From contig JACDOI010000016.1 in assembly GCA_017656145.1 (NCBI GenBank), positions 1 to 47,156 on the forward strand: a stretch of DNA of 47,156 nt. The letters are read 5' to 3'. The stretch comes from Bacillota bacterium (GTDB taxonomy: Bacteria; Bacillota; Limnochordia; Limnochordales; ZCTH02-B6). The translations under genes were made by a program, and so were the position numbers. This document shows, in pieces, positions 14,146-22,408 of this stretch. The notes under the pieces are model-generated. The model ran no database searches. It was not told where the DNA came from and worked only from the letters and a program-made list of their open reading frames with translations. The stretch's first letter is position 1. Every line of letters begins with the position of its first letter.

Positions 14146-14903
14146 GCCGTCGGCCTCCCGTCCACGGCCGTCGCCGGCTGCCGGGCGTCCCCGGTCACGG
14201 CTTTGGCCCGCGAAGACATTAGCCAGTCCCGCACCGACCGGAAAAGCTCCAAGCCGTCGGTGCTCGTCATGTACCGTTCAACGGCCCGTTCCGGATGAGG
14301 CATTAAACCCAGGACATTGCCCCGGCGGTTGCAGATGCCGGCAATGGACCGGACCGAGCCGTTGGGGTTGGCGCCCGAGGTCACGTTGCCCCGCTCGTCG
14401 CAATAGCGGAACACGATCCGGCCCTCGCGCTCAAGCTCTTCCAGCACCTCGACCGGAGCGAAATAGTTTCCCTGGCCGTGAGCGATGGGCAGCCGGATCA
14501 CCTGGCCCGGGCGGAAGCGACCGGTGAACGGCGTTCCCGCGTTTTCCACCCGCAGGTGAACCGGCCGGCACACAAACCGTTGCGCGGCGTTGGGCCGCAG
14601 TACACCGGGCAAAAGTCCCACCTCGCAAAGGATTTGAAAGCCGTTGCAGATGCCCAGCACCGGACCGCCTTCACCGGCGAATGCGGCCACCGCCTCCATG
14701 ACAGGAGCAAACCGGGCGATGGCGCCGGGTCTCAGGTAGTCGCCGTAGGAGAACCCGCCGGGCAAGATCACCATGTCGACGTCCCCGAGATCATTCGCGT
14801 CGTGCCGGACGCAAACCGCTTGTTCGCCCAGCCCGTCCACGACAGCCCGGTGCGCGTCCCGGTCGCAGTTCGACCCCGGAAAGACGACCACGGCGCACTT
14901 CAT
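14142..14903 (-). CDS. purQ: FGAM synthase glutaminase subunit PurQ
   Basis: A 253-residue class I amidotransferase. It begins [18 protein letters not shown], has the nucleophile in [11 protein letters not shown] and the His-Glu dyad in [12 protein letters not shown] near residue 225, and the [14 protein letters not shown] substrate region. It produces ammonia for PurL. The ATG overlaps the purC::purS stop by 4 bases (ATGA), and its own stop overlaps purL, so PurS domain, PurQ and PurL should be made together. The C-terminus runs about 25 residues past the usual end of PurQ, with no recognisable domain. Confidence 0.96.
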
Positions 14904-15985
14904 GAACGCCCCTCCATGCGGGAGACGGATGAGATCTCAAACTCTTCAACGACGGGATTGGCCAAAAGGCGGCGGCACATTTCCTCCGTCCGTTGACGGG
15001 CAAAGGCCGGGTCCGCCAGTTTCAGGGCCAGTGCCATGGACTTGCCCACTCGAACGTCCTCCACTTCGCCGTAGCCCATGGCCCGCAGCCCTTCCCCAAC
15101 CGCCTTGCCCTGCGGATCAAGCATCCCCTCCTTGGGCATGATCCGCACCTCCACCGCCCAACGGGCGGGCAACCGGTCTTCTTCGCTGTCGCGGGCCGCC
15201 TTTTGAGCCTTGCCGCCCGCGTTTTCTGCCTGCTGCCCGCCAGCACCCGGACCGCCCGCATCGCTCCCGGCTTCCAGCCGGCTCAATATCGTCTCGTACC
15301 CTTCCAGCACTGGCCCGAGATCCCGGCGAAAGCGGTCTTTGTCGAGCCGCTCGCCGCTGGCCGCGTCCCACGCCCGCAACGTGTCCGGTGAAAGCTCGTC
15401 GGCCACCACGAGCTGCCCGCCGACCAGGCCGAACTCCAGTTTCAGATCGACAAGCTCTATCCCCGCGCGGGCGAACCGGGACAAGAGCGCTTGATTGGCG
15501 CGGCGGGCCAGCTCTTCCATCTCGTCGACCACCGAATCCGCGGCCAACCCCAAGACCCGGATGTGGTCCCGATTCAGAATCGGATCCCCTAAGTCATCCC
15601 GCTTGTAGTAGTGCTCGATCACCGGTTGCGGCAGCGGCCGCCCCTCGGGCAACCCCAGCCGGCGGCTGAGGCTGCCGGCCACCTGATTGCGCACGACGAT
15701 CTCCAGCGGAACGATCTCCGCCCTCCGGGCCAGGATGAGCCCGGGCCCCAGCTCCTGAACGAAGTGGGTCGGAACGCCGGAGCGCTCCAGCTCCAAAAAC
15801 AGCAGGGCGGAGATGCGGCTGTTCAACGTCCCTTTGCCGCGCACCTCCGCCCGCTTGCGCCCGTTGAACGCCGTCAGGTCGTCCCGAAACTGGACGATCA
15901 CCTGATCGGGCCTGCTCGTTGCGTATATGGACTTGGCCTTTCCCCGGCGGATCAGCTCGCCCCGCTCCGGCACCGGATCGGACAC
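14900..15985 (-). CDS. purC: SAICAR synthetase fused to FGAM synthase subunit PurS (PurC::PurS)
   Basis: About 361 residues holding two enzymes. Residues 1-240 are PurC: IRRGKAKSIYAT, DLTAFNGRKR, PLEIVVRNQVAGSL, VELVDLKLEFG-type and DELSPDTLRAWD. A flexible Gly/Ala/Gln-rich linker (about residues 240-270) leads to a complete PurS domain of about 80 residues: VEVRIMPKEGMLDPQGKAV, GYGEVEDVRVGKSMAL and NPVVEEFEI. In B. subtilis purC and purS are separate adjacent genes. No stop or frameshift separates the parts here. The GTG at 15983-15985 is the chosen start, 7 bases after GGAGGGG. An internal promoter with PurBox-like sites lies just upstream. Confidence 0.93.
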   Translation of the reverse strand: MSDPVPERGELIRRGKAKSIYATSRPDQVIVQFRDDLTAFNGRKRAEVRGKGTLNSRISALLFLELERSGVPTHFVQELGPGLILARRAEIVPLEIVVRNQVAGSLSRRLGLPEGRPLPQPVIEHYYKRDDLGDPILNRDHIRVLGLAADSVVDEMEELARRANQALLSRFARAGIELVDLKLEFGLVGGQLVVADELSPDTLRAWDAASGERLDKDRFRRDLGPVLEGYETILSRLEAGSDAGGPGAGGQQAENAGGKAQKAARDSEEDRLPARWAVEVRIMPKEGMLDPQGKAVGEGLRAMGYGEVEDVRVGKSMALALKLADPAFARQRTEEMCRRLLANPVVEEFEISSVSRMEGRS

Positions 15986-16011
15986 CGGACATCCCCTCCG
16001 CCCTTCCCGAG

Positions 16012-16024
16012 ATTGTTCGGTTAT
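16012..16024. promoter_or_regulatory. PurBox (PurR binding site), perfect match
   Basis: ATTGTTCGGTTAT on the plus strand, read on the minus strand as ATAACCGAACAAT, fits the B. subtilis PurBox consensus AWWWCCGAACWWT at all 13 positions. It lies just downstream of the predicted start of transcription of the purC::purS promoter. Confidence 0.6.
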
Positions 16025-16042
16025 TGCACAACTCACACCCCC

Positions 16043-17559: not shown

Positions 17560-17588
17560 TTGCACACCCGGCACGCGGTGCATATTGT
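17560..17588 (+). promoter_or_regulatory. Promoter for the spore-coat amidoligase cluster
   Basis: TTGCAC (17560-17565), 17-base spacer, TATTGT (17583-17588) fits a sigma-A promoter. The same bases include CATATTGT (17581-17588), which partly resembles the mother-cell sigma-E -10 (CATACANT). Given the coat genes downstream, sigma-E or sigma-K use is plausible. Confidence 0.5.
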
Positions 17589-17625
17589 GTAGGAACGACC
17601 ACGCCGGACCGGGGAGGTACCCCCC

Positions 17626-18981
17626 TTGCGCTGCCTCCTGCTCGTCGGGGACCGCCCGCCCCACCCTGCTCTTGTCAAGCATCTGCGCCATTTTACCGTT
17701 TCTGAGGATTTCCCGCCGGGCGACTGGACGTGCGTCGTCCGCTGGGGAAGCGTGGCCGGCGACGACGGCCGGCATTGGGTCGTCAATTCCCGGGCGGCCA
17801 TCCAGAACGCCAACACCGCGGACGGCATGACCATCTTGAGGTGCAACCGGATTCCTGCCGCTCCTTTCGCGGAACTCCGCTACCGGGTGCTCACGTTCGA
17901 CTTGCGGACCGTCGCCGTGCACCAGTGGACGGGCCGGCGGCTTCGGCCTGTCAGCGCGCGGGGGTTGGGCCGAGCGGCGAGCATCCGCCACCTGGCCCGC
18001 CGGGCGTGTTACGCCTTGGGACTGCATTTCGCCGCGGTGGACATCGGCTTTCTCGCCTCCGGTCAGCCCGCCGTGGTCCGGGTGTTGCCCGCTCCGGTCC
18101 TGGACACCCGGACAGCCCGGCGGCTGGCCCAGGCCATGGAAACGTACGCCGCCTCGGTAGAGGAGGCGCAGCAAGCCGCCGCGGGCCGGGCGACCGCTCC
18201 GGAGGTCGTCCTCGGGGCGGACCCCGAGTTCATTCTGCGCAGCCGCAGAACAGGCAGGACGGTCAGCGCTTCCCGGTTTTTCACCCGTTTCGGCACGGTG
18301 GGTCTGGATCGAGCGTGTTTCGCGCGCCACGGAGTCCTCGTGTATCCGTTGGCCGAAGTCCGTCCCGCGCCCAGCGCGGACCCGCTGGAGCTGGTGGAAA
18401 ACTTGCGCCGGGCCATCGCCCGCGCGGCCAGCACCGTCCGGGGGTACCGGATCAATTTCGAGGCGGGAGGCACATCGTTGCGCCGGTTCACCATCGGCGG
18501 GCACGTGCACTTCAGCAACGTCCGGCTGTCTACGGACATTCTGCAGGCTTTGGACAACTATCTCGCCCTGCCTGTGCTCCTTTTGGAAAATCCCCGCAGC
18601 TCCCGGTTGCGCCGGCCCCGCTACGGGTTTCTCGGCGACTGGCGAGCCCAACCCCACGGCGGGTTCGAATACCGGACGCCGGGCAGCTGGCTGATCGCGC
18701 CCCAGTATGCCAAGGCCGTCCTGTGCCTCGCGAAGGTGGTGGCCACCGACTACCCGTTGCTTCGTCGCAACGTGTTCGTGTCGGCCGAGATCCAGCGCGC
18801 GTTTTACCAGGCTGACAAAGCGCTGCTGCGGCCCCACTTCACCCAACTGTGGCGGGATCTGCAATCGGCGCCCACGTTTGCCGAGTTCCAGGAGCACATC
18901 GACATCATCCGGCACATGGTGGTCGAGGAGCGCCGCTGGAACGAACGGGTCGACCTGAAGCGCCGGTGGCTGGCGGGCTAG
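17626..18981 (+). CDS. Phage phiEco32-type COOH-NH2 ligase (glutamine synthetase fold) with ATP-grasp-like N-terminal region
   Basis: A 451-residue protein. Residues about 200-440 carry the conserved pattern of COOH-NH2 ligase type 2: GADPEFIL, PLAEVRPAPS, TIGGHVHFS and GGFEYRTPGSW, supplying the metal and nucleotide residues of the glutamine-synthetase-like fold. Enzymes of this family are predicted to form amide bonds on peptides or proteins. The N-terminal 180 residues end with LGLHFAAVDIGFLASGQ and VVRVLPAP, resembling the last lobe of ATP-grasp proteins but without the usual Glu-x-Asn metal ligands. The start is TTG at 17626, 7 bases after GGGGAGGT. It leads a cluster with cotE and two YheC/D ATP-grasp genes, so a role in the spore coat is inferred. 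Confidence 0.8.
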   Translation: MRCLLLVGDRPPHPALVKHLRHFTVSEDFPPGDWTCVVRWGSVAGDDGRHWVVNSRAAIQNANTADGMTILRCNRIPAAPFAELRYRVLTFDLRTVAVHQWTGRRLRPVSARGLGRAASIRHLARRACYALGLHFAAVDIGFLASGQPAVVRVLPAPVLDTRTARRLAQAMETYAASVEEAQQAAAGRATAPEVVLGADPEFILRSRRTGRTVSASRFFTRFGTVGLDRACFARHGVLVYPLAEVRPAPSADPLELVENLRRAIARAASTVRGYRINFEAGGTSLRRFTIGGHVHFSNVRLSTDILQALDNYLALPVLLLENPRSSRLRRPRYGFLGDWRAQPHGGFEYRTPGSWLIAPQYAKAVLCLAKVVATDYPLLRRNVFVSAEIQRAFYQADKALLRPHFTQLWRDLQSAPTFAEFQEHIDIIRHMVVEERRWNERVDLKRRWLAG

Positions 18982-18987
18982 GGCGTA

Positions 18988-19015
18988 ACACCGCCGCGCC
19001 CGGCCCCATAACATA
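18988..19015 (+). promoter_or_regulatory. Sigma-K-like promoter before cotE
   Basis: CATAACATA (19007-19015) fits the mother-cell sigma-K -10 consensus CATANNNTA exactly, with an AC dinucleotide (18988-18989) 17 bases upstream as the short -35. An overlapping CATACAAC resembles the sigma-E -10. B. subtilis cotE is known to use both sigma factors. Confidence 0.5.
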
Positions 19016-19052
19016 CAACAAGGTTCAGCCAGGAGGAGGAGAGTGATTTCGT

Positions 19053-19682
19053 ATGAGCGCCTTGCGCGAGATTTTCGTCAAGGCCGTCTGCGCCCGGGGC
19101 AAACGGGGGTTCGCCCGCACTCACCGTTTCCGGACCAAATACCACCCCGATGATCTTCTGGGCTGCCGGGTCACCAACCACCGCTACGGGGCGGTATTGA
19201 CCGGCAGCGGCGTCACACTGCAGGGCTCCTACGACATCCACGTGTGGTATGCCTACAGTGGCGTGGGTGACGGGGCAGACGGCAGCCGGGGCAAAGTCCA
19301 CACCGGGGTGTCCGTTCAGACCGTGGAGTTTCAAGAACACCTGCCGGTTCAGTACTTGACCGGCGGACCGGGCGCAGTGATCAATCCGGAGTGCCGGGTG
19401 GCAGCTACCCGCCAACCCCGGGCCCGGGAGATCGCACTCGACGCCGACGGCGTGGTGCAGGTGACGGTGGAGGACGGCTACGCCGCCGAGGTCATCGGCG
19501 AGACGACGTTGTGGGTACCGGTATACGGCGGCGTTGGGACCGGCGGCGACGAAAAGAAGGCGCTGGAGCTTTGGGAGTCGATGGATAGCGAGCTGGACGA
19601 CGAGTTTGACGACGATCTGGACGACGACGAGTTTGAGGTCACAAACGGCGAGGAGCTGGAGGAGCAAAACGTCAGCCATTGA
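19053..19682 (+). CDS. cotE: Outer spore coat morphogenetic protein CotE
   Basis: A 209-residue protein aligning with B. subtilis CotE over its body: REIFVKAVCARGKRG, LGCRVTNHRYGAV, GSYDIHVWYAYSG and YAAEVIGETTLWVPV. CotE forms the scaffold between inner and outer coat and recruits most outer coat proteins. The last 36 residues are extremely acidic (LDDEFDDDLDDDEFEV, then EELEEQN), longer than the acidic tail of B. subtilis CotE. The ATG follows AGGAGGAGGAG and a sigma-K-like promoter. In B. subtilis cotE sits next to mutS; here it lies between an amidoligase and two ATP-grasp enzymes, which makes it a candidate substrate for them. Confidence 0.9.
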   Translation: MSALREIFVKAVCARGKRGFARTHRFRTKYHPDDLLGCRVTNHRYGAVLTGSGVTLQGSYDIHVWYAYSGVGDGADGSRGKVHTGVSVQTVEFQEHLPVQYLTGGPGAVINPECRVAATRQPRAREIALDADGVVQVTVEDGYAAEVIGETTLWVPVYGGVGTGGDEKKALELWESMDSELDDEFDDDLDDDEFEVTNGEELEEQNVSH

Positions 19683-19698
19683 CCGGTCCCGCGCTACC

Positions 19699-19724
19699 GG
19701 CGAGCCCCCTCCTGGGGGCTCGCC
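19699..19724 (+). terminator. Hairpin after cotE
   Basis: A perfect 11-base inverted repeat (GGCGAGCCCCC and its complement) with a 4-base loop lies 16 bases after the cotE stop. No real U tract follows (only GGCTTT), so it may attenuate or stabilise the cotE mRNA 3' end rather than fully terminate. Confidence 0.55.
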
Positions 19725-19748
19725 GCGGCTTTGGGAAAGGGGACTCCC

Positions 19749-21176
19749 ATGAGTATGCCCGTTGTCCATCCCGTCGTCATCGGCACCGCACCCCACGTCC
19801 GCCGGGCGGAGGTGCATGTCCCTGCGCCCGTGGCCTCGGCGCTATCGCTGGACGGCGGAAGAATTGAGGTGGCCGCCGGCCCTCTGCGGGAAACGGGCAC
19901 CGCGGTCATCCGGCCCCAGGCGGCGCCCGAGCGCGGCGCGTCGCTGGTCGTGCATCCCCAGCTGCTGAACCGCCTGCACGTACCTCCGGGAACGAGGCTG
20001 CACGTCCGGTACGACCCGAAAAGCCGCGTCCTCTCCCTGGGCCCCTTTGTCGGCATCTTGGCGTTGCGTTCCCGGCGCGGCCCGGTGTTCGGCGATCACG
20101 ATCCGTTTTTTCGCGCACTCACCCGCTTTGGCCAGAGGCTGGCCATCGCCGCATACTTGTTCTCCCCGCGGGATGTGGACTGGCAACAGCACTGCGTCCG
20201 GGGATACACCTACACAGGCATCTGGCCGTTGGGCCGCTGGCGCCAGAGCGCGTATCCATTCCCGGATGTGGTGTACGACCGAATTCAGACCCGCCGCACC
20301 GAATGGAGTCCCGGATTTCTCCGGTTCCGGGAACGCCTGGCCGGCCATGTGCGGATCTGGTTCAACCAGACCGGTTTCTTCGACAAGTGGCGCATGCATC
20401 AGGAGTTGTCGAAAAACCCGGGTCTGGCCCGCCTGTTGCCGGAAACCGAGCGGTACAGCGGCCGGAGGGATCTCGAACGGTTTCTGAAAGCGTACCGAAC
20501 CGTGTACTTGAAACCCATCGGCGGCAGCCTGGGATTGGGCATCGTGCGCATTCGCCGCACGGGATCCGGCTACACGTGTGCCGTCCAGCGTCGGGACCGG
20601 GCCGTGGTCCTGTCGGCTCCGACGTTGTCCCGGCTTTCGTCCGTCGTGAGCGGCATCGTCCGGGAACGACCGTACATCATCCAGCAAGGATTACCCCTGG
20701 CCACCTGGCGGGGGCGCCCGTTCGACGTCCGCATCCTCATGCAGCGCACGGCCGGAGGCCGCTGGGCGCTGACCAAGATGTACTCGCGGGTAGCAGCCCC
20801 GGGGAGTTTCACGTCCAACCTCAGCCGCGGCGGCCAGGGGTGCCGGGCGGGACCGCTGTTGCGGCGGGTATTCGGTCGCCGGTCAGCCGCCTTGTTGGCA
20901 CAACTGAGGGCCACGGGGATTGAATGCGCCCGCCAAATCGAACGCACCTTGACGGGCACCGTGGGAGAGCTTGGTCTTGACTTAGGGATCGACCGGCGGG
21001 GACGCACCTGGCTCATCGAGGTCAATTCGAAGCCGTTTCTGCAAATGACCCGGGAGGCCGGATCCCCCCAGACGCTGTCGTTGTCCGTGCAGCGACCGCT
21101 CCGGTTCGCCAAGTACATGGCCGGCTTCGAAAACGGGTCGCCCGAAACCCTCATCGAGGAAAAGGAGCGATCGTGA
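19749..21176 (+). CDS. YheC/YheD-type ATP-grasp spore coat protein (long form)
   Basis: A 475-residue protein. Residues 1-105 form the beta-rich N-terminal domain of the longer YheC/D members (VHPQLLNRLHVPPGTRLHV, GPFVGIL). The ATP-grasp follows: FFDKWRMHQELSKNPGLARL, YLKPIGGSLGLGIVRI (nucleotide lobe), GRPFDVRILMQR and the metal-binding end LDLGIDRRGRTWLIEVNSKP. In B. subtilis YheC and YheD are spore-associated and YheD is a mother-cell protein encircling the forespore. ATP-grasp enzymes join a carboxylate to an amine or thiol; the substrate is unknown. The ATG at 19749 follows AAAGGGG. The stop overlaps the next gene by 4 bases (GTGA). Confidence 0.88.
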   Translation: MSMPVVHPVVIGTAPHVRRAEVHVPAPVASALSLDGGRIEVAAGPLRETGTAVIRPQAAPERGASLVVHPQLLNRLHVPPGTRLHVRYDPKSRVLSLGPFVGILALRSRRGPVFGDHDPFFRALTRFGQRLAIAAYLFSPRDVDWQQHCVRGYTYTGIWPLGRWRQSAYPFPDVVYDRIQTRRTEWSPGFLRFRERLAGHVRIWFNQTGFFDKWRMHQELSKNPGLARLLPETERYSGRRDLERFLKAYRTVYLKPIGGSLGLGIVRIRRTGSGYTCAVQRRDRAVVLSAPTLSRLSSVVSGIVRERPYIIQQGLPLATWRGRPFDVRILMQRTAGGRWALTKMYSRVAAPGSFTSNLSRGGQGCRAGPLLRRVFGRRSAALLAQLRATGIECARQIERTLTGTVGELGLDLGIDRRGRTWLIEVNSKPFLQMTREAGSPQTLSLSVQRPLRFAKYMAGFENGSPETLIEEKERS

Positions 21177-22408
21177 GCATGCCCCGGGCAGTATTGGGCA
21201 TCTTGACCACATATCCGGACGGCTCGTCGGTTCGGGGACCCCGATGGCCCCAATGGCGGTCGTTTGCGGAAATCATCCGTCACGGCCGGAAGCAGGACGT
21301 CCTGGTCTACGTCTTCTCTCCCGGAGGCGTCGACTGGCGGCGCCGTCAGGTCCTGGGATGGCGCAGCTTTGGGCAAGGTGCGCGCCGCTGGGCGCTCGGC
21401 TGGTTTCCCATGCCCGACGTCGTCTACAACCGGGTGCCGAGCCGCACCGCTGAGCGCCATCCGTCGGTGCGCGCCTGCCTGCGCCGGTTCCTGGCGCTCC
21501 ACGGGCGGGTGTTCAACCCCCATTACCTGAACAAGTCCGCCCTGCAGCGAGCGCTGGGCCGCCATCCGAAGCTTTCGCGCCATCTACCCGACACGATCCC
21601 CCTCACCGGGCCCGCCGTGCTCCGCCGGTTCGCGGATACGCATCGCCGAGTCTATCTCAAGGCCGTAGGCGGGAGTTTGGGCAACGGGACGATGGAGCTG
21701 GCCCGGACCGCGAGCGGGTGGCGGCTCCGCTACAACCCGGGGCCCGGCCGGACTCGCACGGCGTCGTTTCACACCTGGCCCGGAGCCTGGACCGCCATCC
21801 AGCGGATCACCCGGGGCCGGCCGTACCTCGCGCAGCGGGCCATCGCCCTCGCCCGGGCCGACGGCCGACCGTTCGACTTGCGGCTGCTTGTGCAAAAACA
21901 CCCCGACGGCCGGTGGCGGTTCACCGGCGGGGCGGCCCGGGTGGCCGGGCTTGGGCAGATCACCACCCACGTTCCCAGGGGCGGGCGGCGCATGGCCATG
22001 GAAGAGGCGCTGGCAAAAGCCTTCGGACCGGAATATACTGCGGAAATCGGTCGCCAGGTGGCGGATTTGGCCGAGCGCGCGGCAGCAGCGATGGAAGCGG
22101 CCACAAAGCGCCGGTTCATCGAAATGTCGATGGACCTCGGGATCGATGACCGGGGCAGGATGTGGATTTTCGAATTGAATGCCAAGCCCCTGCGCTTTGA
22201 CGAGCCCGACATCCAGCAAACCCGGATCGCCTATCTCCTCGACTACGTCGTGTGGGCCGCGCGAGAGATGTCGCCCATCAGCGTACCGCCGCCCGGGGCG
22301 AACGCTCCGGTCAGAAATGACGAAATCCCGTTGCTGAAAGCGGCCGGAGCTCCCCGTCCGGTAGCCGCAGTCGGATCCCTTCCCGGGCGTCCACGATTTC
22401 CCCGATGA
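21173..22408 (+). CDS. YheC/YheD-type ATP-grasp spore coat protein (short form)
   Basis: A 411-residue paralogue of the preceding gene, starting at GTG within its stop. It lacks the N-terminal beta domain and begins directly at VLGILTTYPDG. ATP-grasp motifs: FNPHYLNKSALQRALGRHP, YLKAVGGSLGNGTMEL, GRPFDLRLLVQKHPDGRW and MDLGIDDRGRMWIFELNAKP. The two ligases probably act in one pathway or modify different sites. The last 98 bases overlap the 3' end of convergent thiL, so its final 32 residues (Pro/Ala/Arg rich) are antisense to thiL and are unlikely to be a conserved domain. Confidence 0.87.
   Translation: MSMPRAVLGILTTYPDGSSVRGPRWPQWRSFAEIIRHGRKQDVLVYVFSPGGVDWRRRQVLGWRSFGQGARRWALGWFPMPDVVYNRVPSRTAERHPSVRACLRRFLALHGRVFNPHYLNKSALQRALGRHPKLSRHLPDTIPLTGPAVLRRFADTHRRVYLKAVGGSLGNGTMELARTASGWRLRYNPGPGRTRTASFHTWPGAWTAIQRITRGRPYLAQRAIALARADGRPFDLRLLVQKHPDGRWRFTGGAARVAGLGQITTHVPRGGRRMAMEEALAKAFGPEYTAEIGRQVADLAERAAAAMEAATKRRFIEMSMDLGIDDRGRMWIFELNAKPLRFDEPDIQQTRIAYLLDYVVWAAREMSPISVPPPGANAPVRNDEIPLLKAAGAPRPVAAVGSLPGRPRFPR

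Follow-up and report, generated by a model that had tools for sequence, protein, structure and literature searches.

Four adjacent genes on the plus strand of the window (the whole stretch of 47,156 nucleotides that was analysed) encode a COOH-NH2 ligase, the coat protein CotE and two YheC/D-like ATP-grasp enzymes, and this neighbourhood recurs widely in Bacillota. We hold, with moderate confidence, that the genes make up a mother-cell amide-ligase set which modifies spore-coat proteins, CotE being encoded along with it as the scaffold for its action.

The gene cluster and its putative promoters

Open reading frames and profile matches confirm the initial annotation: the four genes are present at positions 17626-22408, intact, in the order just given and all on the plus strand; the annotation had set the beginning of the cluster at 17560, 66 bp upstream of the first codon of the ligase gene. 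The COOH-NH2 ligase gene (17626-18981, +; 451 aa, TTG start) matches PF14395 at residues 196-448 (E 1.6e-90; 303 bits against the curated cut-off of 25), and cotE (19053-19682, +; 209 aa) matches PF10628 (E 7.9e-29; 100.9 bits, cut-off 25). Both ATP-grasp genes match PF14398 (cut-off 26.8 bits): a long form, ATP-grasp ligase 1 (19731-21176, +; 481 aa; E 3.6e-77; 259.5 bits), carries the motif LIEVNSKP, and a short form, ATP-grasp ligase 2 (21173-22408, +; 411 aa; E 1.3e-62; 211.8 bits), carries IFELNAKP. These two motifs, as well as GADPEFIL, GGHVHFS and GGFEYRTPGSW, had been noticed earlier and are all present in the translations; the short gaps and overlap reported with them measure 71 bp, 48 bp and a 4-bp overlap in gene order. 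No NCBIfam model scored above its cut-off for any of the four proteins.

The cluster is flanked by purB upstream (minus strand) and by a convergent thiL-like gene (minus strand, AIRS domains), in a region of purine and pyrimidine genes. The same region holds a fusion of PurC (SAICAR synthetase) with PurS (14900-16036, −; 378 aa; PF01259 and PF02700). The source genome has one gene for CotE, one for the COOH-NH2 ligase and four for YheC/D; it also has SpoIVA and thus possesses coat-assembly genes. The other two YheC/D genes lie away from the cluster (G000:C34:23398-24177 and G000:C66:7296-8054).

CATAnnnT is the −10 element of mother-cell sigma-E/sigma-K promoters. A candidate element, CATATTGT, is situated at 17581..17588 (+), 37 bp before the start codon of the ligase gene, and a second one, CATAACAT, at 19007..19014 (+), 38 bp before cotE. 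The pattern is kept 36-40 bp before the ligase gene in four out of four sequences (the window and three relatives), and upstream of cotE in all five family sequences compared. We also counted CATAnnnT at 20-80 bp upstream of automatically picked start codons, scoring the −10 element alone and taking the expectation from the same stretches after mononucleotide shuffling. The element preceded 31 of 56 CotE genes (3.3 expected), 46 of 159 YheC/D genes (9.4 expected) and 9 of 31 leading ligase genes, i.e. those not abutting CotE or YheC/D (1.3 expected); for unit-internal ligase genes the count was 5 of 62, with 4.2 expected. As far as a −10 signature can tell, this pattern fits expression of the cluster in the mother cell during sporulation. 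The sigma-E regulon of Bacillus subtilis includes yheC and yheD, both of which SpoIIID stimulates (PMC517825).

Recurrence of the neighbourhood

The initial annotation had named a lack of recurrent linkage among the results that would refute its reading; this was not what the survey showed, for the linkage of the ligase, YheC/D and CotE does recur across Bacillota. All four other genomes of the family have the order ligase - CotE - YheC/D - YheC/D within the limits of their contigs, which places the grouping far beyond chance. Within the class (41 genomes, source included) the ligase was found in 11 genomes, each of them with YheC/D; in a class member outside the family (G024) the ligase and CotE genes adjoin, while in five others (G015, G020, G027, G030 and G033) the ligase gene adjoins YheC/D and there is no CotE match.

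An even sample of 199 genomes of the phylum contained the ligase in 26 genomes, YheC/D in 66, CotE above cut-off in 28 and SpoIVA in 173. Every ligase genome had SpoIVA, and every one had YheC/D (26/26; Fisher p 6e-15, genomes treated as independent); CotE was present in 18 of the 26, as compared with 10 of 173 ligase-free genomes (p 8e-13, on the same assumption). Since the genomes share kinship, these p-values make the evidence look stronger than it is; the adjacency stands independently of them. CotE was located at most 7 kb from the ligase in 18 of 18 genomes having both, and in all eight ligase genomes without CotE a YheC/D gene stood directly beside a copy of the ligase.

Scanning 84,980 species genomes, we obtained 356 ligase relatives. 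The best 80 of the 356 loci, with CotE in 34 and YheC/D in 65, include relatives of Paenibacillus, Tumebacillus, Kyrpidia, Alicyclobacillus, Kroppenstedtia and Caldalkalibacillus, as well as of Thermincola, Symbiobacterium and Syntrophomonas. The presence of CotE together with the ligase in the Thermincola and Symbiobacterium relatives is to be compared with the report of Galperin et al. 2012, who saw no CotE in clostridia (PMC3533761). For the 102 ligase copies in all fetched loci (some genomes are in twice) the median gap to YheC/D was 8 bp and that to CotE 211 bp; the only two copies with neither gene in the fetched stretch were extra paralogues (L110 and L115). At one locus (L108; 7564-10338, −) a single protein of 924 aa joins PF14395 (residues 212-464) to PF14398 (residues 657-918); this fusion directly supports joint action of the ligase and YheC/D.

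Loci from Paenibacillus, Ammoniphilus, Kroppenstedtia, Tepidibacillus and Caldalkalibacillus have the ligase gene exactly between cotE and mutS; in the last four, where the stretch was long enough, the order reads miaB - ymcA-like - cotE - ligase - mutS - mutL. Two loci from Kyrpidia and Alicyclobacillus (L058 and L080) have CotE - YheC/D - YheC/D - ligase - YheC/D (one or more), followed by miaB and mutS. Three ligase-free genomes (L128, L129 and L135) keep the order miaB - ymcA-like - cotE - mutS - mutL, minus the ligase. The cotE locus of B. subtilis reads miaB-ymcA-cotE-mutS-mutL, and a control profile search of this species gave no PF14395 match. B. subtilis shares the CotE and YheC/D families with the cluster, but its yheC and yheD are elsewhere in the genome. 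By the simplest reading of this synteny, the ligase cluster was reduced to give the B. subtilis-type cotE locus; alternatively, the clusters may have been assembled independently.

Domain architecture of the ligases

The AlphaFold model of the COOH-NH2 ligase (mean pLDDT 89.9) has two domains. The N-terminal one (residues 1-181; 17626..18168, +) resembles the ATP-grasp fold of RimK minus its central nucleotide-binding subdomain: it aligns with RimK (7qys_B) from end to end, over RimK residues 1-292, with Z 16.5 and rmsd 2.7 Å, but with just ~174 of 281 residues matched, so that the nucleotide-binding middle appears to be missing. Sequence matches of this domain to RimK-type families are weak, and the ATP-grasp metal motif E-x-N is unconserved in it among the aligned ligases. 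The domain is probably non-catalytic, and we infer that it is a binding domain of RimK-like descent.

The C-terminal catalytic domain (residues 190-451; 18193..18978, +) has the glutamine-synthetase/GCS fold; its matches were YbdK (1tt4_A, Z 17.1), GCL (2gwc_B, 16.2), PafA (4bjr_A, 16.1) and Dop (4b0r, 16.1). Eight of its residues, D199, E201, E244, R246, H293, H295, E348 and R350, do not vary among the 101 aligned sequences and are expected to be catalytic. The fold is shared with PafA/Dop and GCS/YbdK (Z 14-17); unlike in those enzymes, the catalytic domain of the ligase sits behind a truncated RimK-like domain. The cluster showed no Pup-like gene, and the neighbourhood lists (ORFs of at least 60 aa) no recurrent group of small proteins. 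The ligase protein had weak matches to phage-type families and no match in phage records.

RimK, ArgX/LysX and the tubulin polyglutamylase TTLL6 add glutamate or a related residue to protein tails. The model of ATP-grasp ligase 1 (mean pLDDT 89.9) matched all of them over residues 105-466: ArgX with Z 22.7, RimK with 22.5, LysX with 22.1 and TTLL6 with 19.6, scores within 1 of one another being regarded as tied. The fold is therefore the same (Z 19.6-22.7) at an identity of 14-21 percent, while the long YheC form, unlike these enzymes, bears an additional N-terminal domain. Small-molecule ligases matched nearly as well (glutathione synthetase, Z 22.2; D-Ala-D-Ala ligase, 19.4), and for this reason the ATP-grasp fold does not fix a protein as the substrate. 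The additional domain (residues ~11-104; 19761..20042, +) is a candidate double-psi barrel like the N domain of p97/Cdc48, residues ~11-84 having weak profile matches to p97 N domains (E 0.01-0.03), and is possibly a binding module. It is absent from ATP-grasp ligase 2, where PF14398 begins at residue 112 rather than at residue 210 as in ligase 1. The E-x-N metal motif was found in 154 of 179 YheC/D sequences, fragments included.

Proposed coat modification and alternative roles

The view of the initial annotation that no described system encodes CotE within such a set does not stand in the light of earlier work. The Pfam entry for PF14395 is said to place this family near genes for YheC/D-like ATP-grasp enzymes and CotE in firmicutes and to suggest that it may act in spore coat biosynthesis; the COOH-NH2 ligase/YheC-D/CotE neighbourhood was reportedly noted by Iyer, Abhiman, Burroughs and Aravind in 2009, with the same three families and the same predicted role in coat modification as in the cluster described here. 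The group has since cited Iyer et al. 2009 as a source for the operonic linkage of ATP-grasp with COOH-NH2 ligases (PMC4431377). As the neighbourhood had already been predicted, the cluster in the window is a further member of it and its novelty is modest. What may be new beside the earlier description are the counts in a phylum sample, the evidence on promoters, the fusion of ligase and YheC/D, the truncation of the RimK-like domain and the synteny with miaB, cotE and mutS. Among the papers searched there was no functional study of these families together.

CotE of B. subtilis is the morphogenetic scaffold of the outer coat. According to the explanation that we prefer, the genes for the COOH-NH2 ligase, CotE and the two YheC/D enzymes would constitute a set that the mother cell expresses during sporulation. 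One ligase of the GS/GCS type and two RimK-like ATP-grasp ligases would activate carboxyl groups at the expense of ATP, and amino acids or short peptides would thereby be joined to coat proteins; in the COOH-NH2 ligase, the truncated RimK-like domain would probably serve for docking or acceptor binding rather than as a second active site. CotE would be co-encoded because it is the scaffold on which the ligases act, either by accepting the additions on its acidic tail or by anchoring the ligases at the coat. Which reaction takes place, which amino acid is donated, in what order the ligases work and what they modify are all inferred. The proposal draws on the families to which the proteins belong, the intact catalytic residues, the recurrent linkage, the single fusion, the promoter signature and the kinship of fold with tail ligases; it is also favoured by the sigma-E/SpoIIID control of yheC and yheD in B. 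subtilis, by the SpoIVA-dependent deposition of YheD on the spore (PMC7911427) and by the presence of SpoIVA in all 26 ligase genomes. Counted against it are the 8 of 26 ligase genomes without CotE, the 10 sampled CotE genomes without the ligase, and the scores of glutathione synthetase and D-Ala-D-Ala ligase with the YheC fold. The coat-ligase reading in the initial annotation is partly supported: the assignment to amide-bond-forming families (with catalytic residues kept in 101/101) and the linkage are upheld, and the mother-cell promoter signature agrees with it, while CotE as a substrate is no more than plausible.

As eight of the 26 ligase genomes have no CotE, this protein cannot be the sole target or acceptor. 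The candidate acceptor is the acidic C-terminal tail, the last 40 aa (19560..19679, +). Tails of CotE with a linked ligase have a median of 16 D/E in 40, versus 9.5 for those without (p 0.035, kinship uncorrected); the CotE tails at two ligase-free loci of the B. subtilis type (L128 and L129) are equally acidic, which makes the evidence from tail acidity weak. We therefore rejected the acidic tail as a marker of ligase genomes. No solved relative of CotE was detectable by sequence. A bolder version of the preferred explanation, in which a non-ribosomal relay of the three ligases extends the acidic tail of CotE covalently and the cotE locus of B. subtilis is a reduced remnant of such a system, seems to us tentative and rather unlikely.

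The same enzymes could instead make a small soluble peptide or polymer (e.g. glutamate-rich or mixed) that is laid into the coat, with CotE localising the enzymes or their product. YheC is about as near to glutathione synthetase as to RimK, the COOH-NH2 ligase is near to GCS and YbdK, some loci with four YheC/D copies in a row resemble stepwise peptide synthesis, and CotE is absent from some ligase genomes. What points to a protein acceptor, however, is the truncated RimK-like domain together with the PafA-like fold, and neither an exporter nor a carrier-protein gene was noticed among the recurrent neighbours in the neighbourhood lists; we regard this alternative as doubtful, though it is the likeliest of the three rival readings.

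It is a little less probable that CotE neighbours the ligases through shared regulation only, the four mother-cell genes acting on different parts of the spore. The candidate promoter of cotE is its own, separate from that of the ligase gene, and CotE and the ligase each occur without the other; but the adjacency spans distant lineages and contexts, miaB-cotE-ligase-mutS in many Bacilli among them, and so exceeds what shared regulation needs. Quite improbable is the idea that in some lineages the enzymes serve the coat chiefly as structural proteins, their catalysis being secondary or lost: the invariance of the ligase's catalytic residues and the retention of E-x-N in most YheC/D sequences speak against it, even though YheD of B. 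subtilis, for which no activity is known, interacts with itself and builds a shell around the spore that depends on SpoIVA (PMC7911427).

Returning to coat modification by the amide-ligase set, the recurrent set, the fold kinship with tail ligases and the mother-cell signature make the role of the coat-associated YheC/D proteins directly testable. If ligase-dependent mass additions were found on coat proteins, coat assembly would include a further layer, covalent decoration by non-ribosomal ligases; B. subtilis, which apparently lacks the COOH-NH2 ligase, may have this layer only in part.

Some individual loci had further peculiarities. Two adjoining CotE paralogues with unlike tail acidity, then four YheC/D genes and then the ligase gene were seen at L037, L046, L059 and L072. 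Three genomes (G091, G129 and G161) have YheC/D-matching open frames of 931-946 aa; in G129 and G161, a pair of ATP-grasp domains lies close together within the frame. At a locus from a close relative the first YheC/D gene is broken by an in-frame TAG (L029:10142-11563, +). In many Syntrophomonas-type loci a gene for an AstE/aspartoacylase-like hydrolase comes right after the ligase gene on the opposite strand (e.g. L085:9444-10295, −), a placement that may perhaps be meaningful.
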